DNA of 64,000 bases, from contig DYJI01000007.1 of the NCBI GenBank assembly GCA_020723185.1, forward strand, positions 153,874 through 217,873. The letters run 5' to 3'. Position 1 is the first letter of the stretch. Every line of letters begins with the position of its first letter. Of the stretch, positions 39,108 to 54,833 are shown piece by piece. The DNA is from Sideroxydans lithotrophicus (GTDB taxonomy: Bacteria; Pseudomonadota; Gammaproteobacteria; Burkholderiales; Gallionellaceae). The position numbers and the translations under genes were made by a program. The notes beneath the pieces are model-generated. The model was not told the origin of the DNA, made no database searches, and was given only the letters and a program-made list of their open reading frames with translations.

Positions 39108-39168
39108 GACTTTGCCGCAGCCCCCCAAGAAAATCCTCGGAATGCGGTTCAAATTTGAACCGTATTTC
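39104..39168. promoter_or_regulatory. Duplicated 65-bp control sequence with 18-bp palindrome (copy 2)
   Basis: Exact copy of 8509-8573, with the palindrome at 39145-39162. It reaches the first codon of the peptidase gene, so on the minus strand it provides the leader of the tra operon; to the right lies the plus-strand maintenance region. One regulator probably controls both copies. Confidence 0.75.
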
Positions 39169-39334
39169 GTTGGTGTTAGGAGGGTGTTCAGGGAAGTCGA
39201 AAAGCGTAGATGTGCTGTAGATGTTCTGCCGTGCGCGTGGTCGTGATGCAGCTTAGTTGCCGATGAAAAATCATTGCGATCACTGATTGACAGCCAATTT
39301 CCGCCGCTGTATTTTTGTCACATCTACTTCGATG

Positions 39335-39404
39335 CTTATTGCTCGAACTGATATTGGTGGCTGGCCAATTGAAACAAACAGAAGGCGAGAAATCGTCAAG
39401 CAGT
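39335..39404 (+). promoter_or_regulatory. Conserved promoter-like block, copy 1
   Basis: Shares cTTATTGC...TGATATTGG-N7-CCAAT...AAACAGAAG with blocks at 45439 and 50692. The palindrome ATTGG-N7-CCAAT is at 39353-39369, and TGATA and GAAACA flank it as possible -35 and -10 elements 17 bases apart. A GCGA/TCGT mini-hairpin follows. It lies directly upstream of leader 1. Confidence 0.55.
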
Positions 39405-39408
39405 AAAT

Positions 39409-39483
39409 CACCCACCCAAGCGGGGACATCGTTCCCCTTGGGGCATGGTGTCCCTTTTTTTTTTCGTCAAAAAGGAGATCACC
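39409..39483 (+). promoter_or_regulatory. Structured leader 1 (before the 25-residue peptide gene)
   Basis: Outer stem GGGACA (39423-39428) with TGTCCC (39449-39454), inner CCCC/GGGG, then a T10 run, a terminator-like shape. Alternatively ATGGTG...CTTTTT can pair with AAAAAGG...CACCAT, covering AAGGAG and the start codon at 39484. Confidence 0.75.
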
Positions 39484-39561
39484 ATGTCACTCGTTATCGT
39501 TGCCTGCATCGTTTCTGGTTATGCACTGAGCCGTCCTGTTGTTCGGACGCTCGGCCTGTAA
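39484..39561 (+). CDS. 25-residue hydrophobic peptide, family copy 1
   Basis: ATG to TAA, with AAAAAGGAGATCACC before the start, an excellent ribosome site. The peptide starts MSLVIVACIVSGY and ends SRPVVRTLGL: a short hydrophobic helix then a basic tail. Copy 2 at 55817 has 16 of 25 residues the same and the same length, with strongest match in SGY-LSRPVVR-LGL. Constraint on protein sequence implies it is translated. Probably inserts in the inner membrane; function unknown. Confidence 0.7.
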   Translation: MSLVIVACIVSGYALSRPVVRTLGL

Positions 39562-39563
39562 AT

Positions 39564-39625
39564 CTACCCATTGGGGATACGTCCCCTTTGGGGTGTGTCC
39601 CCTTAAATTTTCAAGGAGACGCACC
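39564..39625 (+). promoter_or_regulatory. Structured leader 2 (before the RecE-like gene)
   Basis: GGGGATAC and GTGTCCCC form an 8-bp outer stem with one U-G wobble around TCCCC/GGGG. The alternative pairs GTGTGTC with GACGCAC next to AAGGAG. Confidence 0.72.
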
Positions 39626-40909
39626 ATGAAACGCTTTGTTCGCAATCTTCCAATCGCCGATTACCACGCAGGGGAAGAGATTTCCCACAGTGGTATCGTC
39701 AAGCTGCTCAAGTCACCTGAGCACTATTTGCAGTACAAAATCGGTGGAGACGAACCCACTCCCGCAATGGAGTTCGGTTCTGCTTTCCACGCATTCATCC
39801 TGGAACCTGAGTTGTTCGCGGCGACTTACTCTGTCGTAGATGAATCAGCACTGGCCGGAACGCTGGCTACTCTGGACGACTACAAAGCTGCGGCAACGCA
39901 GTTGGGTGTGAAGTTCGAGGCGCTGAACAAGGATGAACTGAAGCTGGCCATTAAGGCAGCGGATAAAACTGGCATCCTCTTTTTCAAAGAGGATATGCAA
40001 CAAGAAATCGCCGCAATTTCAGCAGAAAAGCTGGCCGGGGCATTGGCTACGCTGGATGATCTCAAACAAGCTGCTGATACGCTTGGTATCGCAATTGGGA
40101 AGATGAAGAAGGATGAGCTGAAGGAGGCTATCAAAGCTTTCGATGCGGATTCAAAATTCAAATTCCGCGAAGATGTCCAAGCCGAAATAGCTGCACTTAC
40201 TGCTGATAAGTTGGTTGGGACGCTGGCTACTCTGGACGAATACAAAACTGCGGCAACGCAGTTGGGTGTGAAGTTCGAGGCGCTGAACAAGGATGAACTG
40301 AAGCTGGCCATCAAGGCGGCGGATACAGAATCATTGTTCAAGTTCCGTGAGGATGAGTACAACCGCCTGTACGGGGCCAAAATCATTCTCAAGCAAGACC
40401 AGATGGATGCGCTGACCGCGATGCGGGAAAGCGTTTTCAAACATGGTGGCGCTGCCAAAATGTTGGCCAAAGGTGAAGCAGAGTCTTCTTTGTACTGGAC
40501 TGATGAAATCACCGGCCTCAAATGCCGGATTCGTCCTGATTGGTTGTTCGATGGCGGAATGGCAGATCTCAAAAGCTGCGTTTCTGCCAGCAAGGCTGAT
40601 TTTGCCAAAGCTGTGGCCAACCTCGGGTATGACATCGAGGCGGCGTTCTATGTCGACGGCATGAAGGCAGTCACCGGAAAATCGGTCGATTTCTTCTTCA
40701 TCGCTGTTGAGAAAACTGCGCCGTACACGACAGCCTGTTACAAGGCCAGTCAGGAGATGATCGAAATCGGGCGCGCCAAGTATCGCGGCGGGCTTGAGTT
40801 GCTGAAATGGTGTCAGGAAAACAAGCAATATCCTGGCTATCAACCCAATGGTGAGATCGAGACAATCGATCTTCCGCGCTGGGCTGCAAACTTCGAGCTG
40901 GAGGCATAA
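39626..40909 (+). CDS. RecE/YqaJ-like PD-(D/E)XK exonuclease with three 60-residue repeats
   Basis: A 427-residue protein. The N-terminal SHSGIVKLLKSPEHYLQYK and EFGSAFHAFILEPELF, and the later RPDWLFDGGMADLKSC with a following helix, match RecE-type nucleases; D, D-x-K and downstream aromatic residues of the active site are present. Between these, residues 76-135, 136-195 and 196-245 are tandem copies of a helical unit (LATLDDYKAAATQLGV, then LNKDELKLAIKAAD), absent from ordinary RecE or lambda exonuclease. Paired with RecT at 42414, it should resect double-stranded ends to give 3-prime single strands for annealing. The start follows CAAGGAGACGCACC. Confidence 0.85.
   Translation: MKRFVRNLPIADYHAGEEISHSGIVKLLKSPEHYLQYKIGGDEPTPAMEFGSAFHAFILEPELFAATYSVVDESALAGTLATLDDYKAAATQLGVKFEALNKDELKLAIKAADKTGILFFKEDMQQEIAAISAEKLAGALATLDDLKQAADTLGIAIGKMKKDELKEAIKAFDADSKFKFREDVQAEIAALTADKLVGTLATLDEYKTAATQLGVKFEALNKDELKLAIKAADTESLFKFREDEYNRLYGAKIILKQDQMDALTAMRESVFKHGGAAKMLAKGEAESSLYWTDEITGLKCRIRPDWLFDGGMADLKSCVSASKADFAKAVANLGYDIEAAFYVDGMKAVTGKSVDFFFIAVEKTAPYTTACYKASQEMIEIGRAKYRGGLELLKWCQENKQYPGYQPNGEIETIDLPRWAANFELEA
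39851..40357 (+). repeat. Three tandem 180-bp units inside the RecE-like gene
   Basis: Units begin at 39851, 40031 and 40211. Units 1 and 3 are nearly identical for their first 115 bases, while unit 2 has diverged. This suggests old triplication with recent exchange between the outer units. Confidence 0.85.
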
Positions 40910-41299
40910 ATGATAGACGCAACGCTGGTCCCATTTCTGCCTATCAACCAGTTGGCCATCATTCGCGAATGTCTTGAAGGTGAGGAACGCGAGTTCTTCG
41001 TCAAAAAGATGGACGAGATAAAGGCCGTCATCGAAAAAATGCCAGTCACCTATTCGCAGTCTGAATCGGGTGATGAGGCGGTCGCGTATCTGCACTATTT
41101 CTATGGCAAATGTGATTGGTACATCACCGAGAAGGATATGGAAGGTGATGGAACTGTTCAGGCATACGGAATGGCAGATTTGGGCTACGGTCCTGAGTGT
41201 GGCTACATCAGCATTCAGGAGATCACTCAATCAGGAATCTATGTTGAGCTCGATCTTCACTGGGAACCCAAAACGCTGGCAGAAATCAAGAAGAAGTAA
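40910..41299 (+). CDS. DUF2958 protein
   Basis: A 129-residue protein whose second half has the DUF2958 pattern: CDWYITEKDMEGDGTVQAYGMADLGYGPECGYISIQEI and ELDLHWEPKTLAEI. This family is common on conjugative elements and has no known function. It starts directly after the RecE-like stop, in the same transcript. Confidence 0.8.
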   Translation: MIDATLVPFLPINQLAIIRECLEGEEREFFVKKMDEIKAVIEKMPVTYSQSESGDEAVAYLHYFYGKCDWYITEKDMEGDGTVQAYGMADLGYGPECGYISIQEITQSGIYVELDLHWEPKTLAEIKKK

Positions 41300-41370
41300 T
41301 CCACCCATCGGGGGCATCGTTCCCCTTGGGGCGTGGTGTCCTCCTGATTCATTTTCAAAAGGAGAACATC
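41300..41370 (+). promoter_or_regulatory. Structured leader 3
   Basis: GGGGGCAT-CCCCTTGGGG-GTGTCC form of the family. The alternative pairs GGTGTCCTCCT with AGGAGAACATC over the ribosome site. The T-run is weak. Confidence 0.6.
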
Positions 41371-41676
41371 ATGGCAGGACGGCTGTATTCAATTCAACCG
41401 GACGACCGTGTTCCGATTGAGTACACGCACTACCAAGAATGGCACGAGCCAGGAAAGGTGGCAGAGTTGGAGCGTGTGATCGGTGCTTGGGAAAAGTCCC
41501 TCGATGTATCACTACTTTCCATATCGGACGGTTTCGACAATCTGGATCAGATGGTTCATTCCGTAGGCTGGGACAATACGATCAATCTGGTTGTCTACGC
41601 GATCCTGTGTGAAGGTTTCGATGTCTATGTCGGAAGCGACTTCATCGATATCTACAACCGCACTGATTGGGAATAA
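41371..41676 (+). CDS. Hypothetical protein
   Basis: A 101-residue acidic soluble protein, starting after AAAAGGAGAACATC. It has aromatic-rich N-terminal and C-terminal parts (YTHYQEWHEPGK; CEGFDVYVGSDFIDIYN). Not recognised. Its leader places it among the coordinately controlled genes of the region. Confidence 0.65.
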   Translation: MAGRLYSIQPDDRVPIEYTHYQEWHEPGKVAELERVIGAWEKSLDVSLLSISDGFDNLDQMVHSVGWDNTINLVVYAILCEGFDVYVGSDFIDIYNRTDWE

Positions 41677-41690
41677 TTCGATTCAAAGCA

Positions 41691-41757
41691 GCACCAACCC
41701 GTCGGGGATACATTCCCCTCGGGGTTTGTGTCCCCTTAATTCTTTAGGGAGACACAA
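41691..41757 (+). promoter_or_regulatory. Structured leader 4
   Basis: GGGGATAC/GTGTCCCC outer stem around CCCCTCGGGG. The alternative pairs TTTGTGTC with GACACAAA exactly, covering GGGAG and the base before the start; the TTT/AAA ends differ from other copies on both strands. Confidence 0.75.
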
Positions 41758-42114
41758 ATGGGAATCGCAATCTTGGTAATTTTTTCAATCGGCCTGTATC
41801 AGGTCGGGAAATGGGCAGTCTTCAAGGCTATTTCTCCAAGCACTGTGGCAGCGAAAACTGAAACGGTCGTAATGGAGACATCTCAGCCAGTTCAAGCGGC
41901 AGTATCGGTTGAGCAAAGCTGGGTTGGTTTTGAAGCACCTACATTCGTTCGTCGCGGTATGCCTTTCCCTGTATTGAAGGAAAAGGCAAAACGCAAACGT
42001 GCGAAAAAGCCGAAGCTCGAAGCAGCGCCGGCACCGTTGGAGGAAGCATTTCCAATGGGTGACTGGACTCTCTTTGCAAACACCGAAGGAGATCACCATG
42101 TCACGACGCATTAA
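41758..42114 (+). CDS. Single-pass membrane protein
   Basis: A 118-residue protein with one N-terminal membrane helix (MGIAILVIFSIGLYQVGKWAVF), a Ser/Thr/Val linker, and a strongly basic stretch (KEKAKRKRAKKPK at about 75-90) that could contact nucleic acid. Its last 17 bases overlap the next gene and its ribosome site. Not recognised. Confidence 0.6.
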   Translation: MGIAILVIFSIGLYQVGKWAVFKAISPSTVAAKTETVVMETSQPVQAAVSVEQSWVGFEAPTFVRRGMPFPVLKEKAKRKRAKKPKLEAAPAPLEEAFPMGDWTLFANTEGDHHVTTH

Positions 42115-42328
42115 AATTACGGCAATCGACCGAATCAAGTCCCGCACACTACGAGTCGCGCTGAAGGTATTCATGGCCGACCCGTCTCTTGGCAAATGCC
42201 AGGCAAAGCCGCTGTTCGCAGAAATCTGTTCCCACTTGCAAGCGGGGATGGATGACGAACAGGTTGTACGGGAAGTGGTAAGGAATCGCGCAATTGGCAA
42301 TCCAAGCCGTCAATTGTCGTTGATGTAA
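42098..42328 (+). CDS. Small basic hypothetical protein
   Basis: A 76-residue protein starting at ATG 42098 after GAAGGAGATCACC. It is basic and helical (RRIKITAIDRIKSRTLRVALKVFMADP). The overlap with the previous gene implies coupled expression. Not recognised. Confidence 0.6.
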   Translation: MSRRIKITAIDRIKSRTLRVALKVFMADPSLGKCQAKPLFAEICSHLQAGMDDEQVVREVVRNRAIGNPSRQLSLM

Positions 42329-42330
42329 TT

Positions 42331-42413
42331 CAAAGCAGCATCCACCCGATGGGGACACTTCCCCTCGGGGCATGGTGTCCCCTTTTTTGTTTCACTCGAA
42401 AAGGAGATACACC
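42331..42413 (+). promoter_or_regulatory. Structured leader 5 (before recT)
   Basis: GGGGACA/TGTCCCC 7-bp outer stem, then T6. The alternative pairs CATGGTGT with ACACCATG, directly covering the start codon at 42414. Confidence 0.78.
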
Positions 42414-43577
42414 ATGTCACAAGCACTTCAAAACATCCGCCGTTCCAACACCGCAGCAGCAACGAAGCCGGCAGAAGCAAGCGGTTTCCCGGCGATGCTT
42501 GAGCAGTACAAGGGCGAAATCGCCCGTGCGCTGCCGAAGCATATCAACCCCGACCGCATGGCACGCATCGCGCTGACTGCGTTCCGCATGACCCCGAAGC
42601 TGGGCGAATGCGATCCGCGAAGCGTGTTTGCCGCCGTGATCCAGTCCTCGCAGTTGGGTTTGGAAGTCGGTCTGATGGGCGAAGCTCACCTCGTCCCGTT
42701 CGGCAAACAGTGTCAACTCATCCCCGGCTACACAGGGCTGATGAAGCTGGCACGCAACAGCGGCCTGGTCGTTGACATCTACGCGGAAGCAGTGCGAATC
42801 AACGACAAATTCGCGCTCAAGCTCGGTATGGCGCGCGATCTGCAGCACGAACCTCTCACGGCTCCAGGCGGCTTTCCTGCGTCTGATGAAGAGCGCGGCG
42901 AGGTGGTTGGCTTTTATGCGGTTGGTGTGCTCAAGGACGGTAGCAAAACGTTCGTGGCCATGTCGCGCAAGGAAGTCGAGAAGATTCGCGATGGCAGCAA
43001 AGGATACAAAGCAGCAAAGCAATACAACAAGGAATCCCCATGGGATACCGACTTTGTACCGATGGGCAAAAAAACCTTGATTCGTAGCCTGTGCAAGTGG
43101 CTTCCGAAGTCTCCAGAGCTGGCAACAGCTTTGGCCTTGGATGACAACGCAGGCCGCCAGAATCTCAACGTCAAGGATGTGATCGACGGCACTTTCACGC
43201 CGGTGGTCGACGAAGAGACTGGCGAGGTCATGGAAGTATCTGATGGCAACTTATCCATTCAACAGCAGTGGGATAAATACGATCAGGTGCTTGCAGACTA
43301 TGGCGCAAAAGAGGCTGAAAACTTCATGCCTAAAACTCCGCGTCCAGTGTCGAACGCCAAACCATCGGCGTCCGAAGCTGAATCGGAAGCAGCAGCTCAA
43401 GGCCTGGTTGCAAAGATTGTCGATGCCATGAAGAAGACCAAAACCGTTGAAGCATTGGATGAGGTCTACCTTCACGCAGAAGGCATCCTGAGCGATGCGG
43501 AGCTAGAAGTGATCCTCGTTGACTATCGCAACTGCAAGGAAGCGATTCTCAAAGGTAACGAAGGTCTGTTCGACTAA
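42414..43577 (+). CDS. recT: RecT family single-strand annealing protein
   Basis: A 387-residue RecT-like recombinase. Conserved blocks are [34 protein letters not shown] and [17 protein letters not shown], then [24 protein letters not shown]. RecT anneals complementary strands produced by RecE-type resection. The C-terminal 100 residues are variable. Paired with the RecE-like gene 1.5 kb upstream, it likely repairs or recombines element DNA after transfer. Confidence 0.95.
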
Positions 43578-43579
43578 GT

Positions 43580-43663
43580 AGCACCCACCCATGCGGGATC
43601 ATCATGTCCCGCTTGGGGCATGGTGTGACCGCTTTTTTGTATCAATCGAAAAGGAGATTCACC
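43580..43663 (+). promoter_or_regulatory. Structured leader 6 (before ssb)
   Basis: The outer stem is GCGG/CCGC instead of GGGG/CCCC, changed on both strands, followed by T6. The alternative pairs CATGGTG with CACCATG at the start codon. Confidence 0.72.
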
Positions 43664-44089
43664 ATGCTGAACAAAGTACAACTCATCGGTCGTTTGGGCA
43701 AAGACCCCGATCTTCGCTATATGCCGAACAGTGATGCCGTCGCCAATGTTTCGTTGGCGACAACGGAATCCTGGAAGGACAAGGAAGGCCAGAAGCAAGA
43801 GAAAACCGAGTGGCATAACCTCGTGTTCTATCGCGGCCTTGCCGAAGTGGTTGGCGAGTATCTGAAGAAGGGCGCTCTCATCTATGTCGAGGGCCAACTG
43901 ACAACCGAGAAGTACAAGAAAGACGGCGAAGATCGCTACATCACCAAGATCGTTGTCTCCGACATGAAGATGCTCGGTGGCGGCGGCAAGGCTGAAAGCG
44001 AAGATCATTCCAGCGCAAAACCGGCATCGACAGCGAAACCCGCTAAAGGTGCAGGCAAGACCGCCAAGAGTGATATGGAGCCGTTCTAA
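43664..44089 (+). CDS. ssb: Single-stranded DNA-binding protein
   Basis: A 141-residue SSB with a complete OB fold ([56 protein letters not shown]) and an acidic tip DMEPF that binds partner proteins, related to the chromosomal DDDIPF. Element-borne SSBs protect transferred single strands and dampen the SOS response. It is preceded by leader 6. Confidence 0.97.
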
Positions 44090-44094
44090 GCAAT

Positions 44095-44232
44095 GACCAC
44101 CCCAGGGGGGAACATCCCCCTTGGGGATGCTTCCTTGCCGGTGGTGTCAAACCCACCAACCTGTACGGGACACACTAAAGCATCCCGTGGGGTGCTTTGG
44201 TGTGTCCAGTGCGGATTAACCAAGGAGGCATC
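44095..44232 (+). promoter_or_regulatory. Structured leader 7 (before primase), with an extra long hairpin
   Basis: A GGGGG/CCCCC element with TTGGGG resembles the family but is less complete. It is followed by a 15-bp stem: GGACACAC-T-AAAGCA (44168-44182) with TGCTTT-G-GTGTGTCC (44193-44207), one U-G pair, 10-base loop. The ribosome site CAAGGAGG follows. Confidence 0.6.
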
Positions 44233-45321
44233 ATGGAAGCGAAAGACGTCAAGGAAATGGCCGCAGGCCGCTGGGAAAGCATCTTTGCAAGGCTGGCTCC
44301 GCAACTGGAGAAAGCTGTTGATCGTGCGCCCAACCACGTTCCGTGCCCCGTGCACGGCGGTACCGATGGATTCCGGTTGTTCAGGGATTTCAACGATACG
44401 GGTGGCGGCGTGTGCAACACGTGCGGCATCAAGCACGATGGCTATGCGACGCTCATGTGGGTGAATGGATGGGATTTCAAAACCACACATGAAGCGCTGC
44501 AGGATGCACTTGGAGTGGGTGGAAGCAGTCAGCCCATCCCCAAGGTCACCAGTAAACCTGTAGCAAAGAAGGTGAAAGAGAAGGACGTTGAAGACATCCG
44601 AGATTCCCTGAATCACGTATGGAAGAACAGCGTGGCGCTCTCGTCACCAGAAGCGCGGCCAGCAAGGAAGTATTTTGCGAACCGCGGTATCACAAACGTG
44701 GACTTCCGGAAGATCGATAGCAAGATGATCCGCTTCGTTCCTTCTCTTGAGCACTACGAAGAAGATCCGAACGACGGGAAGTTCAAACTGACTGGTATGT
44801 ATCCTGCCATTGTCGCGATGGTGTGTGATGCAAGTGGTCGTCCATCGACCATCCATCGCACTTATCTCACAGCCGATGGGACAAAAGCACCAGTCCAGTC
44901 GCCCAAGAAAATGATGCGGCACTGCGCCGATGATTTGTTTGGGGCAATGCAAATTGCGTTGTTGGGCAATAGCAAGGTACTGGCAATCACGGAAGGGATT
45001 GAGACGGCTTTGGCAGTAATGAGCGCTTTCAATATCCCGGCCTGGGCTGCCGGCAATGCATATCTGTTGGAACACTTTGTGCCACCCAAGGGGGTAGACG
45101 TGGTGATCTACGCTGACAAAGACCAACCATCCAAGCAACATCCGGAAGGGCATGGCCAAGGCTCAGCCAAATTGCTGCTGAAGCGTCTTTGGGCCGAGGG
45201 CATCAAGGCATCCATCAAGATCCCGGAAGGCAACATTCCGCAAGGAATGAAGTCGGTCGATTGGCTTGATGTGGTGAGCGGTGCGATTCAGGCACCCACA
45301 ATGAAAACGGTCGCAAGATAG
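44233..45321 (+). CDS. DNA primase-like protein with zinc ribbon and Toprim domain
   Basis: A 362-residue protein. The zinc-binding N terminus has CPVHGGTDGFR and CNTCG (about 37-67). The Toprim domain is at about 250-330: VLAITEGIETALAV (Glu) and VDVVIYADKDQPSK (DxD-like). There is no helicase domain. This fits plasmid and ICE primases that synthesise primers on incoming single strands. ATG follows CAAGGAGGCATC. Confidence 0.88.
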   Translation: MEAKDVKEMAAGRWESIFARLAPQLEKAVDRAPNHVPCPVHGGTDGFRLFRDFNDTGGGVCNTCGIKHDGYATLMWVNGWDFKTTHEALQDALGVGGSSQPIPKVTSKPVAKKVKEKDVEDIRDSLNHVWKNSVALSSPEARPARKYFANRGITNVDFRKIDSKMIRFVPSLEHYEEDPNDGKFKLTGMYPAIVAMVCDASGRPSTIHRTYLTADGTKAPVQSPKKMMRHCADDLFGAMQIALLGNSKVLAITEGIETALAVMSAFNIPAWAAGNAYLLEHFVPPKGVDVVIYADKDQPSKQHPEGHGQGSAKLLLKRLWAEGIKASIKIPEGNIPQGMKSVDWLDVVSGAIQAPTMKTVAR

Positions 45322-45369
45322 GCTGCAATCCCCATGTGAATGGCGAGCGCAAGTCCTGGACACGTTTTT

Positions 45370-45389
45370 CCCCGCTTGTCGGGGTTTTT
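45370..45389 (+). terminator. Rho-independent terminator after the primase gene
   Basis: CCCCG-CTTGT-CGGGG followed by TTTTT. A second weaker hairpin (GCAGA/TCTGC, 45394-45411) follows. It ends the block recE-like to primase and precedes promoter block 2. Confidence 0.8.
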
Positions 45390-45438
45390 CAAAGCAGATC
45401 GCGAGGTCTGCTTCGAAAAGCGGAATTCACACGCGGAG

Positions 45439-45512
45439 CTTATTGCTTCGGGTTGATATTGGTGGCTGGCCAATCGAAATAAACAGAAGACGTTCAAGCG
45501 TCAACGAATTAC
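45439..45512 (+). promoter_or_regulatory. Conserved promoter-like block, copy 2
   Basis: TTGATA then ATTGG-N7-CCAAT (45458-45474) and AAACAGAAG, as in copy 1; followed by a GACG/CGTC mini-hairpin. It lies right after the terminator and just upstream of leader 8, so it is well placed as the promoter of the next block. Confidence 0.6.
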
Positions 45513-45520
45513 AAAATAGC

Positions 45521-45589
45521 AACATCCACCCAACGGGGGCACGCTCCCCGCTGGGGTTTGTGTCCCCATTTTTTACAAAGGAGACACAG
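45521..45589 (+). promoter_or_regulatory. Structured leader 8
   Basis: GGGGGCAC/GTGTCCCC outer stem with a G-U pair around CCCCGCTGGGG, then a T6 run. The alternative pairs TTTGTGTC with GACACAGA beside AAAGGAG. Confidence 0.75.
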
Positions 45590-45781
45590 ATGGGACTGCT
45601 TTTCGATATGGCCGCTTTCTACAGGTGGCTGCAAGAAGCTTCAGACGACGAGCTTACTAAGCGTCGCGCCGAGGCTTTGACAATGGAAGCTGAGCTGAGC
45701 GACGAAGACGTTAAACGTCGGCTTCGTCGTTTGGTCGGGATGATTGAGGAGGAGATGGTGGCAAGGAAGTTTCGAGCCTAA
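45590..45781 (+). CDS. Small helical hypothetical protein
   Basis: A 63-residue highly charged helical protein (MGLLFDMAAFYRWLQEASDDELTKRR...). ATG at 45590 after AAAGGAGACACAG. Not recognised. Its end is overlapped by a minus-strand open frame. Confidence 0.65.
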   Translation: MGLLFDMAAFYRWLQEASDDELTKRRAEALTMEAELSDEDVKRRLRRLVGMIEEEMVARKFRA

Positions 45782-46064
45782 ATCTGTTGCGGCGTAGTTG
45801 TGCGATTGCATCGGAAGCCTTATGGGTTCCGCTCATGACCGCAAAGACGGCCGCAGCCTCATTGTTCGTTTTGGATTTGTGTTGGATGCACTTCAACTGC
45901 AAGTCAAACGCTTCCACCCTTGGCACTTCGAACTGCTCACAAAGCTGATCGAACTCGTCGCAGGAGAAAGACCACGGCTGGTTGAACAGGAGCTGCTTCT
46001 TACGCTCCAGTTCAACCTTGCCGCCTTCAATGACCGTGAATGGATTGGAACATGGCTTGTTCAT
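45711..46064 (-). CDS. Possible minus-strand gene inside the plus-strand block
   Basis: A 117-residue frame, MNKPCSNPFTVIEGGKVELE..., with natural-looking composition (KKQLLFNQPWSFSCDEFDQLCEQF) and filling a gap that otherwise has no gene. There is no clear ribosome site, and it overlaps the plus-strand gene by 71 bases. The TVIEGG start resembles other small plasmid proteins. It is opposite to every other gene between 39.4 and 63.2 kb. Confidence 0.45.
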   Translation of the reverse strand: MNKPCSNPFTVIEGGKVELERKKQLLFNQPWSFSCDEFDQLCEQFEVPRVEAFDLQLKCIQHKSKTNNEAAAVFAVMSGTHKASDAIAQLRRNRFRLETSLPPSPPQSSRPNDEADV

Positions 46065-46090
46065 GCGGCCAGTCTAGCACGGCAGTTTTA

Positions 46091-46159
46091 TTAACCCAAT
46101 CGGGGGATACATTCCCCGTTGGGGTGTGCGTCCCCTTTATTCACTCAAGGAGACGCACC
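46091..46159 (+). promoter_or_regulatory. Structured leader 9 (before the ArdC-like gene)
   Basis: GGGGA/TCCCC outer stem around CCCCGTTGGGG. The alternative pairs GTGCGTC with GACGCAC exactly, against GTGTC/GACAC in most other copies. Confidence 0.75.
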
Positions 46160-47005
46160 ATGAAAGAAAAATCCAACAAGCCAGACTGGAACGCGCTGTT
46201 TGAGCAGGCTTTGACGCAACCAGGAGTGATGTCTAAGGCGTATTCGGTTTTCCACGAGTACAGCCTTGGCAATGCATTCTTGGCCGCGTGTCAGCTGTTC
46301 GATCGCAAGTTGCCGCTTTCACCCATCGCCACCTTCAACAAGTGGAAAGAGCTTGGCCGCATGGTCAAGAAAGGGGAGAAAGCAATCCAGTTGGTGATGC
46401 CAGTCCAAGTCAAAATCAAATCGAAAGAGGAGGAAGACGAGGCCGGCATCACTGGTCAGGATCAAGGGGCTGCAACAAAAACCATCTTCATCCTGAAAAA
46501 CAACTGGTTCGCACTGTGCCAGACGGACGGCGCGGAGTATGCGCAAGATGTCGCCATTCCGAAGTGGGACAAGGCGAGAGCCTTAGCTTCACTTGGAATC
46601 ACAGAGCAGGACTTCAAAAGCATGAGTGGCAATGCTCAAGGCTATGCCATTCCGAACGAGAAGAAGTTGGCCATCAACCCGCTTGCGGCGTTGCCTTGGA
46701 AGACGACTTTTCACGAGATGGCGCACTGCCTGCTTCACTCGGCAGAAGCTCAAATGGCTGACGGTGAAATGTTGCAGCGATGCATCAAGGAAGCCGAGGC
46801 CGAGAGCGTTGCCTACCTGTGTTGCGCGACGTTGGAGTTGCCCGGGCTGGAACAGAGCCGCGCGTATATCCAACACTGGCTGGGTTCTGAAGAGCAATCC
46901 GACGAATTCAAAAAGAAGAGCGCAGCAAGGGTATTTGCGGCAGCAAACAAGATCCTTAAAGCAGGCGAATGTGCAGTTGACGGAGAGGGGGTGAAGAATG
47001 TCTAG
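46160..47005 (+). CDS. ArdC-like antirestriction / ImmA-IrrE-type metallopeptidase
   Basis: A 281-residue protein. The N-terminal part (YSVFHEYSLGNAFLAACQL, ATFNKWKELGRMVKKGEKAIQLVMP) is the ArdC single-strand-binding DUF1738 domain. The C-terminal part holds the zinc metallopeptidase motif TTFHEMAHCLLHS with a downstream Glu-rich helix. ArdC proteins protect incoming single-stranded DNA from restriction during conjugation. Its leader and position next to SSB and primase fit that role. Confidence 0.9.
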   Translation: MKEKSNKPDWNALFEQALTQPGVMSKAYSVFHEYSLGNAFLAACQLFDRKLPLSPIATFNKWKELGRMVKKGEKAIQLVMPVQVKIKSKEEEDEAGITGQDQGAATKTIFILKNNWFALCQTDGAEYAQDVAIPKWDKARALASLGITEQDFKSMSGNAQGYAIPNEKKLAINPLAALPWKTTFHEMAHCLLHSAEAQMADGEMLQRCIKEAEAESVAYLCCATLELPGLEQSRAYIQHWLGSEEQSDEFKKKSAARVFAAANKILKAGECAVDGEGVKNV

Positions 47006-47366
47006 CCTCCGATACGTCAGAACACCATCCGAAAGAACGATCATCGACAAGCTGCACGCATTACGTCGAAAGGTCGGCCTTTCGGATGGCGTCAAATTCC
47101 GAGCCGAGTTTCTTGTTCTGGCTTTCAAGCATGGATTGGTGAGCGATATCTGCACATACCGACTATGGGATGAAGGCTGGGATGAGTTGGGCGAACGAAC
47201 ATTCGACACCTGCTTCGAGATGGGTGATGCCGAGGAAGTTATCGCGATGGTCGTTTCACAGGCCAGAAACGAAGGCTTCCTGGATGCAATCCGCAATTAC
47301 TGCAACATGCCGGGGTCATTTGATCGCTGGCTGGGGTATGCGGACAAGCAAGCGTGTCTATTCTGA
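46998..47366 (+). CDS. Hypothetical protein
   Basis: A 122-residue protein overlapping the ArdC-like end by 8 bases. Helical, with two Trp-rich stretches (LWDEGWDELGERTFD; FDRWLGYADK). Not recognised. Confidence 0.65.
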   Translation: MSSLRYVRTPSERTIIDKLHALRRKVGLSDGVKFRAEFLVLAFKHGLVSDICTYRLWDEGWDELGERTFDTCFEMGDAEEVIAMVVSQARNEGFLDAIRNYCNMPGSFDRWLGYADKQACLF

Positions 47367-47379
47367 GAAGGGAGACAAC

Positions 47380-47559
47380 ATGCCGTTATCCAAAGATCAG
47401 TTGCTGGCCATGGAAGTAGAGAACGAAATTCTGAGTGTTGCCGACCTCAGCGATGAAGTCACACGTAGCGACCTTCAGGGGATTGCAAGTGTGGCCGCAC
47501 GAAAGATCATCGCCAAGGTACGGGAGCACTTGGACTCGGCTTCAAATCCAATGCCGTAG
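47380..47559 (+). CDS. Small helical hypothetical protein
   Basis: A 59-residue protein, ATG 47380 after AAGGGAGACAAC. Acidic helical sequence (MEVENEILSVADLSDEVTRSD). Last gene of the ArdC-like unit. Not recognised. Confidence 0.6.
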   Translation: MPLSKDQLLAMEVENEILSVADLSDEVTRSDLQGIASVAARKIIAKVREHLDSASNPMP

Positions 47560-47596
47560 CAATACGACTCACCATCAGTTCGCTGAATGGTAATTG

Positions 47597-47662
47597 AACC
47601 AACCACCCAGAGGGGCACGCCCCCTCTGGGGGTGGTGTCCCTTGAAACTTAAAGGAGACACC
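47597..47662 (+). promoter_or_regulatory. Structured leader 10 (before radC)
   Basis: GGGGCAC/GTGTCCC outer stem. The alternative is the clearest of all: GGTGTC-CCTT pairs with AAGG-A-GACACC over the ribosome site, immediately before the ATG at 47663. Confidence 0.78.
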
Positions 47663-48256
47663 ATGAAAGACCGTTCAAATGCTGACCTACTGGCCATATT
47701 GGTGGGCAGATCATTAGCCAATGTGATGGCACCAAAACCTCTTGCCGAGGTGTTCGGATTCGAAAAGCCAAGGCAAATGCAGTTGTGTGAGGAGGATCCG
47801 GCTATCTATGCGGTCAATCCAACGATAGCGGCAGCGAAAGAGCTGTTCACACGCTGCATGAGAGAGCGAATGTCGGAGGAAGTATGTCTTCAATCCCCCG
47901 ATAGCGTAAGTGCATTTCTATGTTCTGAAATCGGACATTTTGAGCACGAGTCATTCTGGTGTTTGTGGCTTGATGCACAACACAGGCTGATCGCAGCTGG
48001 TGAAATGTTTCGCGGAACTCTGACGCAAGCCAGCATCCATCCTCGCGAAGTGGTGAAGTCGGCGTTACACCACAACGCCGCAGCGGTGATCTTCGCGCAT
48101 AACCACCCGTCAGGTTTACCAGAGCCTTCAAGGTCTGACGAACTACTGACAACCGCGCTAAGTCAATCGCTGTGCTTGATTGAGGTCAAGGTGCTGGACC
48201 ACATTATTGTTGCCAGCAACAAGTTCGTCTCGTTTGCAGAGAAAGGACTAATTTAA
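47663..48256 (+). CDS. RadC-family JAB domain protein
   Basis: A 197-residue protein with the RadC/JAMM motif: E in the FRGTLTQA region, then HNHPSGLPEPSRSD. The N-terminal HhH part of chromosomal RadC is absent. RadC-like genes are common on mobile elements, where a DNA-repair or metal-dependent peptidase role is debated. Leader 10 precedes it. Confidence 0.9.
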   Translation: MKDRSNADLLAILVGRSLANVMAPKPLAEVFGFEKPRQMQLCEEDPAIYAVNPTIAAAKELFTRCMRERMSEEVCLQSPDSVSAFLCSEIGHFEHESFWCLWLDAQHRLIAAGEMFRGTLTQASIHPREVVKSALHHNAAAVIFAHNHPSGLPEPSRSDELLTTALSQSLCLIEVKVLDHIIVASNKFVSFAEKGLI

Positions 48257-48330
48257 CCGCCCAATGGGGGATGCACCGTCCCCATCGGGGCGGCGCACCT
48301 CCGAAAGGCATCAACCAAAGGAGGGCAATC
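48257..48330 (+). promoter_or_regulatory. Structured leader 11
   Basis: GGGGGATGCAC and a GCGCACCTCC partner with CCCC/GGGG inside. It is the most divergent family member, and the alternative ribosome-site pairing is weak. Confidence 0.5.
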
Positions 48331-48561
48331 ATGAGCGTCAATTATGTTGTCAAAAACGGGCACACCCTCGGCTACATCCAAGAGGGGAGCTCACTCATGG
48401 GAGTGTTGGCCAGCAACAAAGACGGTCATCACCCGAATGGAGGTCCGGTTTCATTCTTTGAGTCGGACATTCGTCCTGCAACAGAAGATGACTTCCATAA
48501 GTTTCGGGTTGTTGTACCGCCAGATTTTCGGAATCAGCACAACCAGGAGCAATCCCAATGA
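48331..48561 (+). CDS. Hypothetical protein
   Basis: A 76-residue protein after AAAGGAGGGCAATC. Ends in a Gln/Asn-rich tail. Shares ATGA with the next gene. Not recognised. Confidence 0.6.
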   Translation: MSVNYVVKNGHTLGYIQEGSSLMGVLASNKDGHHPNGGPVSFFESDIRPATEDDFHKFRVVVPPDFRNQHNQEQSQ

Positions 48562-48839
48562 CCATTGATACTCAAGAAATCAAAGTTACGCTCGTTTCAG
48601 CAGAGCATGGCTTCAAGGACTTTGACGTGGCCAACCTGCCCAATGTTCATCGGGCGTGCGTTGGTCAGGGAATCAAGAAGGGCGATATCTTCAATGTCTA
48701 TTGCAGCAATGGTGTGAAGCTGGGGGCGACATGGTGCGGGGGGATAGTTCAATCCCTTGCCAATTTCGCAGAGACCCATGCTTTATATCGGCAGTTGTGC
48801 GGTACGGGAGAAGTTGTTCTAACTGAATTATGTAACTGA
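48558..48839 (+). CDS. Hypothetical protein
   Basis: A 93-residue protein with four Cys (CVGQGIKKGD, YCSN, WCGG, LCGTG). Translationally coupled to the preceding gene. Not recognised. Confidence 0.6.
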   Translation: MTIDTQEIKVTLVSAEHGFKDFDVANLPNVHRACVGQGIKKGDIFNVYCSNGVKLGATWCGGIVQSLANFAETHALYRQLCGTGEVVLTELCN

Positions 48840-48841
48840 TC

Positions 48842-48920
48842 AATTACCCACCCATCGGGGATGTCTCTATCCCCTGTGGGGTAGGTCATCCCCTTTTTTT
48901 TCATTAAAAGGAGATACCAA
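48842..48920 (+). promoter_or_regulatory. Structured leader 12 (before parB)
   Basis: GGGGATG/CATCCCC outer stem, a double compensatory change from GGGGACA/TGTCCCC, followed by T8. The alternative pairs GGTCATC with GATACC next to AAAAGGAG, with a one-base bulge. Confidence 0.8.
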
Positions 48921-50612
48921 ATGCAACAAGCAATCACTCAAATGCGCGCAGGAGACATCCGCCAAGGAAGAAACCCACGCACGTACTTCGATCCTGTCGA
49001 AATGGCCGAAATGGAAGCATCGGTAGCCGCCAAAGGCGTGATTCAGCCGATCCTGATTCGTCCCGTTGAAGACTGGTACGAAATCGTTGCCGGCGAACGC
49101 CGCTGGCGCGCAGCGATGAAGACTCGTGGTGAAGACTACGAGATTCCAGTCCTGGTCAGAATCCTCAGCGACGATGAGGCTGACGAGCTGGCGCTCATCG
49201 AGAACGTGTCTCGGGCCAATATGAGCCCAGCGGAAGAAGCCGTCGCAGCAGCCAAGATTCTCGGCCGCTGTGAAGGAAACCGCGACGAGGCAGCAAAAAG
49301 GCTCGGTTGGTCGCGCAGCACGCTGGATAAGCGTCTTGCGCTGATGAACTGTAGTCCTTCTGTGATGGCAGCGCTTAATGAACGGAAGATCCAGCTGGGC
49401 CACGCCGAACTACTGGCTGCGGTTCCGAAGGATCGACAAGAGAAGGTGCTGGCGAACTTGCTGGCGCAACCTTCGCTTCCGTCTGTTGCGCTCTTCAAGG
49501 CCGGACTGGAGGAGATTGCCAAGGCACTGTCTACGGCGATCTTCGACAAAGAGGGCTGCGGAACCTGTCACCACAATAGCGGCAATCAGCAGGCGTTGTT
49601 TGCTGAGGCCGTATCGGATGGGCACTGCACGAATGGCGCCTGTTTCGATGGTAAGACCGAGGAGGTGTTGGAGGCCAAGAGAAAATCCTTGGAGGAAAAC
49701 TATCCGAAGGTTGTGATCGTGCGTCAAGGCGAGAACAACACGGTCGTCAAGCTGGTTGCAGATGGCGCGACCGGCGTTGGTAATGAGCAGGCTGCAGCAT
49801 GTCGTAGCTGCAAATCATTCGGTGCGGCCGTCAGCGCGATTCCCGGCAAGATGGGAAATGTGTACGAGTCGCAATGTTTTGATCCTGCGTGCCACACAAA
49901 GAAGGTGGGCGAACGTCTGTTGGCTGAGAAAGCGGCGGCCGGAAACGGTGCTGCGACCTCTGCTACGGGAAAGCCTGCTGGTACAAAGCCTGCTGCTGGA
50001 AGTGGTGCGGGGAAATCCAAAGCCACAACCAAAGGCGGTGCCGCGACATCCGTTCAGGACAGCCAACGTGTCGTGGACTACCGCATCGAGGTCTGGCGCA
50101 AGGCTTTGAAGAAGGAGCTGTACGCGGATGCAGACAAGAATCTCTGCATGCTCATCGGCGTAATGATGACGCGCGGCGGCTCGAATGTGTCTTCGACCAA
50201 ACTGGCTTCTGGCTTCGAGGCCCTGACATCCCAAAAGGCTCCCAGCAGCAATGTGGGGGAGGCTGCGGAGATGGTAGGGCAGGCAGACGAGGAAGTGCGC
50301 TCGAAGATGCTGTCCGGGATCATCATCTCGATTACGGACAGCATTGAAAAGCATCACTTGCCCGGCATGCTCAAGTTCATGCAAGTGGACATGTCGAAGC
50401 ATTGGAAGTTGAACGCGGACTTCCTGGACCTCCTCACCAAGAGCGAGATCGAGGTCGTCGCGGAAGAGCTCGGGCTGAAGGTCGCGCTTGGCGAGCAGTA
50501 TGCCAAGGCAAAGACCGGTAAGAAGAACGAGTTCATCAAGGCACTTTTGGAATGCAAAAACTTCGATTTTGAAGGTAAGATTCCCAAGGTGTTGCAGTAT
50601 AGTGCTGTCTAA
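48921..50612 (+). CDS. PRTRC system ParB-family protein
   Basis: A 563-residue protein. ParB N-terminal domain with NPRTYFDPVEMAEMEAS, GVIQPILIRP and VAGERRWRAA, then a helix-turn-helix domain near 115-150 (AAKRLGWSRSTLDKRLALM). Two Cys clusters follow (CGTCHHNSG...CTNGAC; CRSCKSF...CFDPAC), probably zinc sites, then an Ala/Gly/Lys-rich linker and a helical C terminus. It is much longer than a plain ParB and fits the ParB of the PRTRC cassette that follows. Likely binds centromere-like DNA. Confidence 0.9.
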   Translation: MQQAITQMRAGDIRQGRNPRTYFDPVEMAEMEASVAAKGVIQPILIRPVEDWYEIVAGERRWRAAMKTRGEDYEIPVLVRILSDDEADELALIENVSRANMSPAEEAVAAAKILGRCEGNRDEAAKRLGWSRSTLDKRLALMNCSPSVMAALNERKIQLGHAELLAAVPKDRQEKVLANLLAQPSLPSVALFKAGLEEIAKALSTAIFDKEGCGTCHHNSGNQQALFAEAVSDGHCTNGACFDGKTEEVLEAKRKSLEENYPKVVIVRQGENNTVVKLVADGATGVGNEQAAACRSCKSFGAAVSAIPGKMGNVYESQCFDPACHTKKVGERLLAEKAAAGNGAATSATGKPAGTKPAAGSGAGKSKATTKGGAATSVQDSQRVVDYRIEVWRKALKKELYADADKNLCMLIGVMMTRGGSNVSSTKLASGFEALTSQKAPSSNVGEAAEMVGQADEEVRSKMLSGIIISITDSIEKHHLPGMLKFMQVDMSKHWKLNADFLDLLTKSEIEVVAEELGLKVALGEQYAKAKTGKKNEFIKALLECKNFDFEGKIPKVLQYSAV

Positions 50613-50619
50613 GTTTCAC

Positions 50620-50640
50620 CCACCCCTTCGGGGGTGGTTT
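50620..50640 (+). terminator. UUCG-loop hairpin terminator after parB
   Basis: CCACCCC-TTCG-GGGGTGG followed by TTT. The loop is the very stable cUUCGg tetraloop. It separates parB from promoter block 3. Confidence 0.75.
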
Positions 50641-50691
50641 CCCAAAGTGCAATGCAGATGTACTTTGGAAAACCAGACTTCACACCCAGCG

Positions 50692-50758
50692 CTTATTGCG
50701 TTGAGTTGAAATTGGCGGCCGACCAATCAAAACAAACGGAAGACGAGCGATCGTCAAT
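50692..50758 (+). promoter_or_regulatory. Conserved promoter-like block, copy 3
   Basis: TTGAAA then ATTGG-N7-CCAAT (50711-50727) and AAACGGAAG, followed by GACGA/TCGTC. The mini-hairpin differs from copies 1 and 2 with compensating changes. Well placed to drive the E-C-F-B-A-ThiF genes. Confidence 0.6.
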
Positions 50759-50776
50759 GAATCACCCAAAGCATTA

Positions 50777-50839
50777 CTCACCCAACGGGGACATCCTCCC
50801 CGCTGGGGTTGTGTCCCTTTTCATTCAAGGAGACACAAC
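50777..50839 (+). promoter_or_regulatory. Structured leader 13
   Basis: GGGGACA/TGTCCC outer stem around CCCCGCTGGGG. The alternative pairs GTTGTGTC with GACACAAC exactly, up to the start codon. Confidence 0.78.
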
Positions 50840-51310
50840 ATGCAAAAGGTTTTCAATTTCTTTTCAGACCCCGGCCATGGCTGGATGGCGGTTAAGAAGC
50901 GACAGCTTGTAGAACTAGGCATCGCCGCAAAAATAACTCCATACAGCTACCAACGTGGTGACACTGCATACCTCGAAGAAGATTGCGATGTAGCTCTATT
51001 CTTTGAGGTATTTCAAAAATTGACTGGGGAAAAACCAGTCTTAAAAAACCACTTCAGTAATCGCAGCTCAAAGATTCGCAACTATGAGTCCTATCGCTGC
51101 GATTCAGAGGCGTTCCGTGTCGTGGCCAGCGTACACGATCCTCGGACAGAGGATGACTCACACCCTGAAATGGAGTTGAATTCCGGTTCTTTGGAGGCAG
51201 CAACACGCCAAGCCAAGAGCTGGGCCCGCAATGGTTACTGGTCGGCTGTATATGACCAGCGAACCGGTGAGGCGATTCACGACTTCACGCCGGAAGCGAG
51301 TTTGCAATGA
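50840..51310 (+). CDS. Hypothetical protein
   Basis: A 156-residue soluble protein. The N-terminal half resembles a small DNA-element protein with an aromatic segment (NFFSDPGHGWMAVKKRQLVELGI), and the C-terminal half a compact alpha/beta piece. Overlaps the next gene by ATGA. Not recognised; it lies between ParB and protein E of the cassette. Confidence 0.6.
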   Translation: MQKVFNFFSDPGHGWMAVKKRQLVELGIAAKITPYSYQRGDTAYLEEDCDVALFFEVFQKLTGEKPVLKNHFSNRSSKIRNYESYRCDSEAFRVVASVHDPRTEDDSHPEMELNSGSLEAATRQAKSWARNGYWSAVYDQRTGEAIHDFTPEASLQ

Positions 51311-51528
51311 ACGGCATGTCGAAATACTCGATAGCTCAAAAGTCCGGTGGTTCTCATGAAGATGATGAGACGCCGCTTTACAGTTTATCGATTGAACGCG
51401 AGGACGAGACAAGCGAAACGATTTGCAGGGCGGTAAGTTACGCATCTGCGTCTGAAATGGCTCTCGGTCACGCAAAACATAGCGGGTACAGCAAGTACCT
51501 TCTAAACGGTCGCATCTGCACCGCATAG
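51307..51528 (+). CDS. Small hypothetical protein
   Basis: A 73-residue polar protein starting in the stop of the previous gene. Not recognised. Confidence 0.55.
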   Translation: MNGMSKYSIAQKSGGSHEDDETPLYSLSIEREDETSETICRAVSYASASEMALGHAKHSGYSKYLLNGRICTA

Positions 51529-51612
51529 CTCTCACAAAACCCAAGCGGGGACATCGTTCCCCTTGGGGGATGGTGTCCCCTTTTTTTGTTTCACTCGAAA
51601 AGGAGATCCACC
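51529..51612 (+). promoter_or_regulatory. Structured leader 14 (before PRTRC E)
   Basis: GGGGACA/TGTCCCC 7-bp outer stem, then T7. The alternative pairs ATGGTG with CACCAT at the start codon. Almost the same sequence as leader 5. Confidence 0.78.
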
Positions 51613-52071
51613 ATGTTCCAAGAGCTTCAACCTTTGCTGGCCACAGTCGCCAGCCTGACCATCTCAATGGTCGAAAATACTGACGGCACCATCACGCTGA
51701 CCGTTCTCCCTGTTGGGGTGAAGAAAGGCAGCAAGCTGGATAGTCAGATGCAATTGGTTGGCACGGCCGCTGAGTTGGATGAGGGGTTCGCCGCTCACCT
51801 GAACAGCTACACAGCCATGCGTCAATCTCTGGCAGACCAACTGGCCGCCACAGAAGCGATTCTGAAGGCGCAAAAGAAGGAAGCTGCCGAAACAGCGAAG
51901 AAGACGATTGCGAAATCCTCGAAGACGGAATCCGGGAGTGATCCCGAACCTGACGATGATGAGCAGTCTGGTGATGATGAAAATGGTGCAGGCAAAACAG
52001 CATCAGGTTCTTCTGAAACCAGCGCTTCAACCGCGCCCGCAGCACAGGCACCATCGGCGCTGTGGGATTAA
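51613..52071 (+). CDS. PRTRC system protein E
   Basis: A 152-residue protein. The first 75 residues are ordered (MFQELQPLLATVASLTISMVE, LTVLPVGVKKG, GTAAELDEGF), then a helix and a long acidic/Ser/Ala tail ending ALWD. The order E-C-F-B-A-ThiF after a ParB is diagnostic of PRTRC. Function unknown. Confidence 0.85.
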   Translation: MFQELQPLLATVASLTISMVENTDGTITLTVLPVGVKKGSKLDSQMQLVGTAAELDEGFAAHLNSYTAMRQSLADQLAATEAILKAQKKEAAETAKKTIAKSSKTESGSDPEPDDDEQSGDDENGAGKTASGSSETSASTAPAAQAPSALWD

Positions 52072-52086
52072 GGGGAGGATGACGAA

Positions 52087-52296: not shown

Positions 52297-52298
52297 TC

Positions 52299-53476: not shown

Positions 53477-53486
53477 AGGAGACATC

Positions 53487-54822: not shown

Positions 54823-54833
54823 GAAGGAATCAC

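Follow-up and report, generated by a model that had tools for sequence, protein, structure and literature searches.

Six-segment leaders with two exclusive folds ahead of recombination, antirestriction and other genes: a possible RNA gate on translation

We analysed a stretch of 64,000 nucleotides from contig DYJI01000007.1 of Sideroxydans lithotrophicus (source genome 2.6 Mb); this whole stretch is called the window here. Between 39.4 and 51.6 kb its + strand carries a series of genes that are preceded by similar leaders. A preliminary description of this DNA had reported fourteen related leaders, and all fourteen were found at the places it gave. It had also listed the products of genes that follow them, and most of that list stands: we find a RecE-like nuclease (DUF3799), RecT, SSB, a Zn-ribbon/Toprim primase, an ArdC N-domain, RadC and ParB. 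Only PRTRC E has to be qualified, being assigned by a sub-threshold Pfam match (23.7 bits with a cut-off of 26). We consider it rather probable that every leader acts in cis as an RNA gate with two states that controls translation.

Each leader is built of six segments, in the order 1 (CCC..), 2 (GGGG and a loop), 3 (CCCC), 4 (GGGG), 5 (called Y) and 6 (called Z). Segment 5 is the complement of the Shine-Dalgarno region, and segment 6 runs from the Shine-Dalgarno sequence to the start codon. Going outward from the Shine-Dalgarno sequence, the pairing partners form a chain of G and C runs, namely GGAG in 6, CUCC in 5, GGGG in 2, CCCC in 3, GGGG in 4 and CCCC in 1. The segments can be combined into two folds. 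Fold A consists of the hairpin H1 (pairings 1·4 and 2·3, of the form CCCAA.GGGGA-loop-TCCCC.TTGGG) and the hairpin H2 (pairing 5·6, of the form GGTGTCCCC(TTTT)...AAAAGGAGACACC), which covers the Shine-Dalgarno sequence and often the start codon too. Fold B consists of the pairing 2·5, in which the 5' arm and loop of H1 (together called X) pair with the 5' strand of H2, and of an inner hairpin, 3·4. The pairing 2·5 is what the preliminary description had called state one.

When the 14 leaders were folded singly, the minimum-energy state was H1 plus the pairing that closes the Shine-Dalgarno sequence in every case (branched in leader 7). The preliminary description, which spoke of two stems, had overlooked H1. 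The Shine-Dalgarno sequence lies beside the start codon within the 3' arm of H2 in 14 of 14 leaders, a property that holds by construction in the wider scan described below. The ribosome-site pairing of these leaders has energies from -10.6 to -18.5 kcal/mol. The pairing 2·5, which is incompatible with both H1 and H2, can form 8-10 pairs in all 14, and in fold B the energy model leaves a median of 70% of the 3' arm unpaired. Little sequence is conserved in the leaders beyond the G/C runs, the Shine-Dalgarno sequence and a YAACCC flank on the 5' side of H1 (A in 60% at position -2 and in 74% at -1). A ligand-binding riboswitch would be expected to have a conserved aptamer sequence in its switching domain; besides the features just named, a conserved hairpin element, described below, stands ahead of some leaders only. 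A MAFFT alignment of 13 leaders misaligned H1 and H2, and RNAalifold picked only 2·5 from it; after this attempt we worked with single folds and with permutations within loci.

The leaders are given below with the evidence for each. R1 denotes a match to a covariance model of that name, built from 50 leaders (four rows from the window, four from the plasmid pRA1) with H1 and H2 only, that is, without 2·5.

Leader 1, 39415..39486 (+): precedes an open reading frame of 25 codons; Y (the shared strand) at 39444-39458, Z (the ribosome-site arm) at 39469-39486; fold, pairings, R1 with E=3e-14 (training row)
Leader 2, 39567..39628 (+): RecE-like nuclease (DUF3799); fold, pairings, R1
Leader 3, 41304..41373 (+): protein without assigned identity; fold, pairings, R1 (training row)
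Leader 4, 41698..41760 (+): protein without assigned identity; fold, pairings, R1
Leader 5, 42345..42416 (+): RecT; fold, pairings, R1
Leader 6, 43588..43666 (+): SSB; fold, pairings, R1
Leader 7, 44100..44235 (+): Toprim primase; aberrant, with large hairpins inserted between the strands of H2; fold, pairings
Leader 8, 45529..45592 (+): protein of 63 amino acids; fold, pairings, R1 (training row)
Leader 9, 46095..46162 (+): ArdC-like antirestriction protein; fold, pairings, R1 (training row)
Leader 10, 47606..47665 (+): RadC; fold, pairings, R1
Leader 11, 48260..48333 (+): protein without assigned identity; weak H2; fold, pairings
Leader 12, 48851..48923 (+): ParB; fold, pairings, R1
Leader 13, 50781..50842 (+): protein without assigned identity; fold, pairings, R1
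Leader 14, 51540..51615 (+): PRTRC E-like protein; fold, pairings, R1

In total, R1 recognises 12 of the 14 leaders at E<=1e-5, including the training rows 1, 3, 8 and 9. It is weak on leader 11 (E=0.65) and on leader 7 (a partial match at 44098-44137, E=0.15). The primase leader (44100-44235) contains a very long inserted hairpin, and unusually long hairpins are likewise seen at the primase genes of the loci L001 (15205) and L002 (14875) and of pRA1 (L056 7748).

The pairings were compared with those obtained when partners are re-dealt among leaders. For the 14 window leaders, only 6 of 20000 re-dealings were as good as the observed 2·5 (z=-3.6), and none of 20000 equalled the observed ribosome-site pairing H2 (z=-5.4). 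The window leaders alone are moderate evidence for 2·5, since the own outer partner is not clearly preferred in six of the 14 (it ranks 12, 11 and 10 of 14 in leaders 7, 9 and 13, and 7, 8 and 8 in leaders 1, 3 and 11).

Relatives were collected as 53 loci by a RecT search and two plasmids by a nucleotide search; in the latter, the same tandem hairpins stand ahead of many genes with quite different letters. These 56 sequences (the window and 55 loci) were scanned for structure. On the + strand H1 and H2 stand at 375 of 3872 candidate starts, on the other strand at 33 of 2124; the numbers become 230 and 1 when 2·5 and a T-rich tail are required as well. A loose scan for H1 and H2 gave many false matches and the criteria were tightened; the resulting set of 224 leaders keeps some false entries (window 5815, 49516; coding region), and four places on the opposite strand carry 2·5.

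From the 375 starts, 304 passed a filter on CC and the Shine-Dalgarno sequence, 215 were left without near-copies, and 193 belong to loci with at least three leaders. In these 193 leaders the cognate 2·5 has -17.1 kcal/mol, and re-dealing within the locus gives -13.0 kcal/mol (z=-15, 0 of 5000 permutations); the loop alone still prefers its cognate partner (z=-6.1). Two control pairings, the 3' arm of H1 with Y (z=+1.9) and X with Z (z=-1.1), show no such preference. The claim of the preliminary description that two pairings exclude each other by sharing a strand is borne out; the 14 leaders that can all form 2·5 are joined by this larger set in which it is conserved.

An independent repeat used 16 of 20 new loci. 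Four (L072, L073, L083 and L084) were omitted as probable duplicates of loci already used, and L087, another contig of a genome with an omitted locus, was retained. R1 gave 90 matches here at E<=0.01, a few of which overlap on opposite strands and are hence not genuine leaders; 87 of the matches fall in 14 loci with at least three. For these 87 we obtained z=-10.7 for 2·5, z=-10.1 for H2 and z=-10.5 for H1, with z=+1.4 for the 3' arm of H1 with Y and z=-0.1 for X with Z.

The alignment of 50 leaders tells the same for individual base pairs. For H1 and H2, 78.7% of the cells are paired (70.2 when shuffled) and 137 two-sided changes are seen (64 when shuffled); for 2·5 the respective values are 81.0% (72.4) and 67 (27). 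The covariation of 2·5 is 0.373 as compared with 0.244 in shuffled alignments and at most 0.253 in slid registers. The counts for 2·5 lean towards this pairing because the rows had been pre-filtered for it, which is not the case for the 87 matches of the repeat. Changes that run three ways across segments 2, 5 and 6 were observed as well. Compensatory change in both stems, which had been proposed from the window, is thus present both as two-sided changes in the alignment and as cognate excess in the repeat. In the same alignment the ratio of G·U to A·C in 2·5 is 114:15, and slid registers give ratios between 1.5:1 and 6.9:1. H1 (43:23) and H2 (96:56) have no such excess, so that the excess in 2·5 hints no more than weakly at pairing in the sense RNA.

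In summary, H1, 2·5 and 5·6 are backed by covariation, and we infer the formation of 3·4. GNRA-like centres are seen far more often in the 3' arm of H1 (48 of 166) than in its 5' arm (2 of 182), which is only a hint that 3·4 forms, given that the arms of H1 are mutually complementary. As in a translational switch, one conserved fold pairs the Shine-Dalgarno sequence and another conserved fold, exclusive of the first, frees it.

We also looked at how far the module reaches. The covariance model finds it in the loci of relatives and in the plasmids pRA1 (IncA) and pUMNK88 (IncC). In pRA1 leaders stand ahead of bet, exo, DUF3150, yfaE, yfbR and others, and in pUMNK88 the starts of ssb, bet and exo score with R1; the pairings are those of the window, with different letters. 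Inspection by eye of 23 gene starts in the two plasmids shows that most hold the module in both. One pair of leaders (L058 38555 in pRA1 and 10136 in pUMNK88) differs by several changes with both folds retained, and the computed fold of L058 43760 is B-like (both by eye).

In the source genome, R1 at E<=0.1 finds 12 leaders and one weak antisense match (E 0.06). Of 200 genomes of the order, 38 have a match at E<=0.01, including the source genome and at least three others (G115, G071 and G020) that contain loci behind training rows. At 1e-4 it matches 15 of 398 genomes across the phylum, again including the source genome. This patchy spread fits mobile DNA. No R1 match was found in pRA1 from 1 to 45 kb. 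In the half of the F plasmid that was scanned, H1 and H2 occur at 2 of 271 starts, 2·5 in register at none, and R1 has no match at E<=1. The DNA methylase gene of the F plasmid (L060 4167) has hairpins like H1 and H2, but the complement listed for its 2·5 (-16.3 kcal/mol) did not pass the test for register.

How might such a gate work? Fold A would hide the Shine-Dalgarno sequence (OFF) and fold B, through 2·5 and the inner hairpin 3·4, would release segment 6 (ON). The complete RNA would rest in A, which means that the gate would be closed by default; to open it, segment 1 would have to be captured or the formation of H1 held back. Candidate openers are a ribosome finishing the upstream gene, folding during transcription, or a factor. 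Strand exchange, rather than a sequence-specific reader of the gate, is probably the working principle, because the letters vary freely while the pairings persist. According to the energy model, B is favoured in 88% of the 224 leaders when the RNA reaches up to segment 5 and A in 99.6% when the leader is complete; the fold of the partial RNA thus differs from that of the full RNA, as in systems of the hok or MS2 type. In the earlier set of 215 leaders, B beats H1 in the RNA made so far in 84%. If the first 3-8 nucleotides of H1 are blocked, the median energy needed to open the Shine-Dalgarno sequence falls from 7.7 to about 3 kcal/mol; with 10 blocked, the gain is mostly lost (6.0 kcal/mol). 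This computed pattern would be as predicted by a relay starting at segment 1.

Several observations weigh against a gate of this kind. The computed direct-path barriers are high, with medians of 20 kcal/mol from H1 to B and 16 kcal/mol from B to A; on these values unaided switching during transcription seems doubtful and a helper likely. Even when segment 1 is blocked, no more than 25 of the 224 leaders have a mostly free Shine-Dalgarno sequence. The stop codon of a long upstream reading frame lies within 15 nucleotides of H1 in only 61 of 224 leaders, and 45 of 224 have no such stop within 150 nucleotides. Since these distances vary so widely, a ribosome occluding segment 1 cannot be the general opener and we rejected it in that role; a ribosome ending the upstream gene could open the gate in some leaders. 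At least three of the 23 starts examined by eye lack the module (pRA1 L058 37962, L058 45446 and L056 7748). A T-run follows 2·5 in many leaders and would make B a terminator there. Finally, a control with reversed X also falls below chance (z=-4.7 in the set of 193 and -4.5 in the repeat of 87). This effect is much smaller than that of the true pairing, but it implies that a part of the 2·5 signal is due to composition.

The last point could be taken to mean that the leaders are ordinary hairpins closing the ribosome binding site and that 2·5 arose as a side effect of composition, of duplication or of near-palindromes being repaired by template switching, all segments being rich in G or C because they mirror the Shine-Dalgarno sequence. 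We regard this as highly improbable, given that cognate pairing is in clear excess (z=-15 and -10.7) and that the remaining controls are near zero; the G·U excess in 2·5 adds a weak hint in the same direction. The T-run would fit a transcription attenuator, with 2·5 as an intrinsic terminator, H1 as the antiterminator and H2 as a second lock on the read-through RNA; an antitermination signal encoded by the element at the head of the operon, perhaps the pseudoknot-like structure described below, would let the polymerase through. The first five places after 2·5 have T in 62, 82, 81, 73 and 67%, and the bias remains among those 81 leaders that leave the tail unpaired in state A. Most partial RNAs favour B over H1 (the 84% and 88% given above), and a conserved structured element stands ahead of some leaders. 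In many betaproteobacterial leaders the terminator-like look of state one, as noted in the preliminary description, does hold (at least four of six T in 73% of 215). In pRA1, however, T is found at the same places in only 46, 38, 15, 15 and 8% (13 leaders), and 11 of 13 fail a test for three T in five. Because these 11 hold 2·5 without a T-rich tail (two have the tail), termination is unlikely as a role common to all leaders. Moreover, several window leaders have broken T runs, at least six consecutive T after 2·5 being seen by eye in only 6 of 14, and terminators ahead of many genes in one operon would require full antitermination. On balance we find the attenuator unlikely.

Two further explanations keep the translational gate and differ from our preferred reading, a gate worked by strand exchange, in what opens it. 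A protein or small RNA of the element may act in trans to open or lock every leader, and the architecture common to many genes and the conserved YAACCC flank at the 5' edge of H1 could be seen in this light. A common RNA-binding regulator had been suggested before, but a sequence-specific reader of the gate is hard to reconcile with segments 2, 5 and 6 that differ among the leaders of one element, and we are rather doubtful of a trans-acting regulator. Alternatively, no factor may be needed: the nascent fold B would admit the first ribosomes until the finished RNA refolds to the silent fold A, in the style of the MS2 maturation gene. The modelled preference for B in 88% of partial RNAs and for A in 99.6% of complete leaders agrees with such a kinetic pulse, and sequence freedom inside one element suits a factor-free device. 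With a barrier of 20 kcal/mol from H1 to B, H1, which is made first, should not open unaided, and we judge the pulse to be distinctly unlikely. As these two explanations and the preferred one overlap, their probabilities do not sum to one. A last possibility is that the hairpins serve as promoters or priming sites in the single-stranded DNA that is transferred, and not in RNA. The genes ssb, recT and ardC would suit entry into a cell, and single-stranded DNA promoters are known in other plasmids (Frpo; PMC11541004). The position of the Shine-Dalgarno sequence in the 3' arm of H2 next to the start codon, in 14 of 14 leaders, speaks against a role in DNA. So does the position of the leaders in pRA1, at about 74-100 kb and far from mobI at 0.2 kb, near which we take oriT to lie. 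We consider this explanation extremely improbable; a use tied to entry into a new cell, as had been proposed earlier, finds no such tie in our results.

A second structured element, a hairpin with a pseudoknot-like tail, is found upstream of three of the window leaders:

39353..39383 (+): hairpin and pseudoknot-like tail upstream of leader 1
45458..45488 (+): hairpin and pseudoknot-like tail upstream of leader 8
50711..50741 (+): hairpin and pseudoknot-like tail upstream of leader 13, with loop CCG and tail CGG where the other aligned copies have CTG and CAG

The element has a hairpin of five base pairs, a loop [AG]GCTG (GGCCG at 50711-50741) and a tail AAA[CT]AAAC[AG]G. Leaders 1, 8 and 13 each sit behind a gap and are probably the first of their operons. 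The tail motif AAA[CT]AAACAG occurs 130 times on the + strand and never on the other in 1.06 Mb, and a looser motif in a slightly different sequence set occurs 125 versus 6 times. A pattern like H1 follows within 8-120 nucleotides downstream of 115 of the 130 tail motifs, compared with 322 of 2360 random places, and 57 of the 125 copies lie at most 250 nucleotides upstream of a leader from the set of 224. The loop is correctly placed in 51 distinct copies. In 42 aligned copies two-sided changes are seen at all five stem pairs, and the covariation of the whole structure is 0.522 versus 0.127 when shuffled. The pairing of loop and tail is near-invariant, partly by selection because nearly all rows were chosen by their loop and tail letters; its sole two-sided change is that at 50711-50741 in the window, and the fourth pair is missing in 9 of 42.

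Further hairpins flank the element, which is likewise present in pRA1 and IncC. The open reading frame of 25 codons behind leader 1 (39484-39561) is at the operon head, and a similar small reading frame is apparently there in a Simplicispira plasmid (by eye). We rejected two other interpretations of this upstream box: it is no AcaCD site, since the AcaCD core given in PMC5058578, GCCCAAAATGGGC, differs, and it contains no sigma-70 promoter, as there is no -10 hexamer at a fixed place. A tentative idea, which we hold as possible rather than probable, is that this hairpin-pseudoknot at the operon head sets the state of the polymerase or ribosome and that the six-segment gates read this state, which would amount to a module-wide RNA control in MobH/F-type mobile elements including IncA/IncC.

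Two features of the neighbourhood may be added. The RecE-like gene (39626-40909) has near-identical internal repeats, for example around 39860 and 40220, as read from the sequence. Downstream of the leaders, a PRTRC cluster at 52087-55643 encodes Prok_Ub (ubiquitin-like), Prok-E2_D (E2-like), JAB and ThiF.

If our reading is right, ssb, recT/bet, exo, primase, ardC, radC and parB are held behind one kind of RNA gate, through which genes for recombination and antirestriction may come under additional, post-transcriptional control. Such a gate would conserve base pairs but not letters, and sequence comparison would miss it. It also stands on genes of two drug-resistance plasmids, pRA1 and pUMNK88, and since laboratory systems exist for the IncA and IncC plasmids that carry it, it is testable.

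The preliminary description knew of no named RNA family of this shape, and neither do we find one. None of the 4227 models of Rfam release 15 has a match at or above its gathering threshold in the whole window. At E<=5, four matches lie in 39000-52500, all far below threshold, among them sraL (20.2 of 39 bits), which overlaps leader 7, and L2-Alphaproteobacteria (17.5 of 37.8 bits) in the stretch ahead of leader 13. The loci L056, L058, L001 and L002 gave one tRNA and no other Rfam match. In the open-licence papers of PMC we found no description of the gate, including for IncA/IncC plasmids. According to PMC4207636, bet/exo of an IncC plasmid are switched on by AcaCD; the gate would act after this activation step.

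Several known systems share features with the leaders. In the Bacillus trp leader, the TRAP protein reads spaced triplets. The likeness lies in a terminator of the nascent RNA combined with a hairpin that closes the Shine-Dalgarno sequence in the read-through RNA; we noticed no spaced triplets of the TRAP type in the present leaders, though no search was aimed at them. The CUP repeats of pKM101 are promoter and operator repeats in DNA before antirestriction and related genes. They likewise place one upstream element on many genes of a leading region, but here it is the pairing that is conserved and not the sequence. The systems hok and aapA3 each comprise one toxin gene and an antisense antitoxin RNA, and the MS2 case concerns one viral gene with one cloverleaf-like fold and no repeated module.

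A proteobacterial candidate RNA, the radC RNA motif (RF01754), is named for a gene that also occurs here (PMC2864571). Its model of 149 positions has no match over its cut-off in the genome; we rejected it, as its seven weak matches reach at best 17.3 of 40 bits and none of those listed lies in the window. Close parallels are to be found among the type I toxin mRNAs hok and aapA3 (PMC6733600). In these, alternative hairpins compete while the RNA is being made and govern whether the Shine-Dalgarno sequence is accessible, as they would here. The title of a paper cited there speaks of coupled covariation in hok. In aapA3 the transient hairpins close the Shine-Dalgarno sequence (PMC6733600), whereas in the present leaders the transient fold would open it. 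In the leader of the MS2 maturation gene, a transient fold permits translation until the start is closed by the final fold (PMC6733600). Finally, hok and aapA3 serve one toxin gene, whereas the module described here stands ahead of many unrelated DNA-processing genes.

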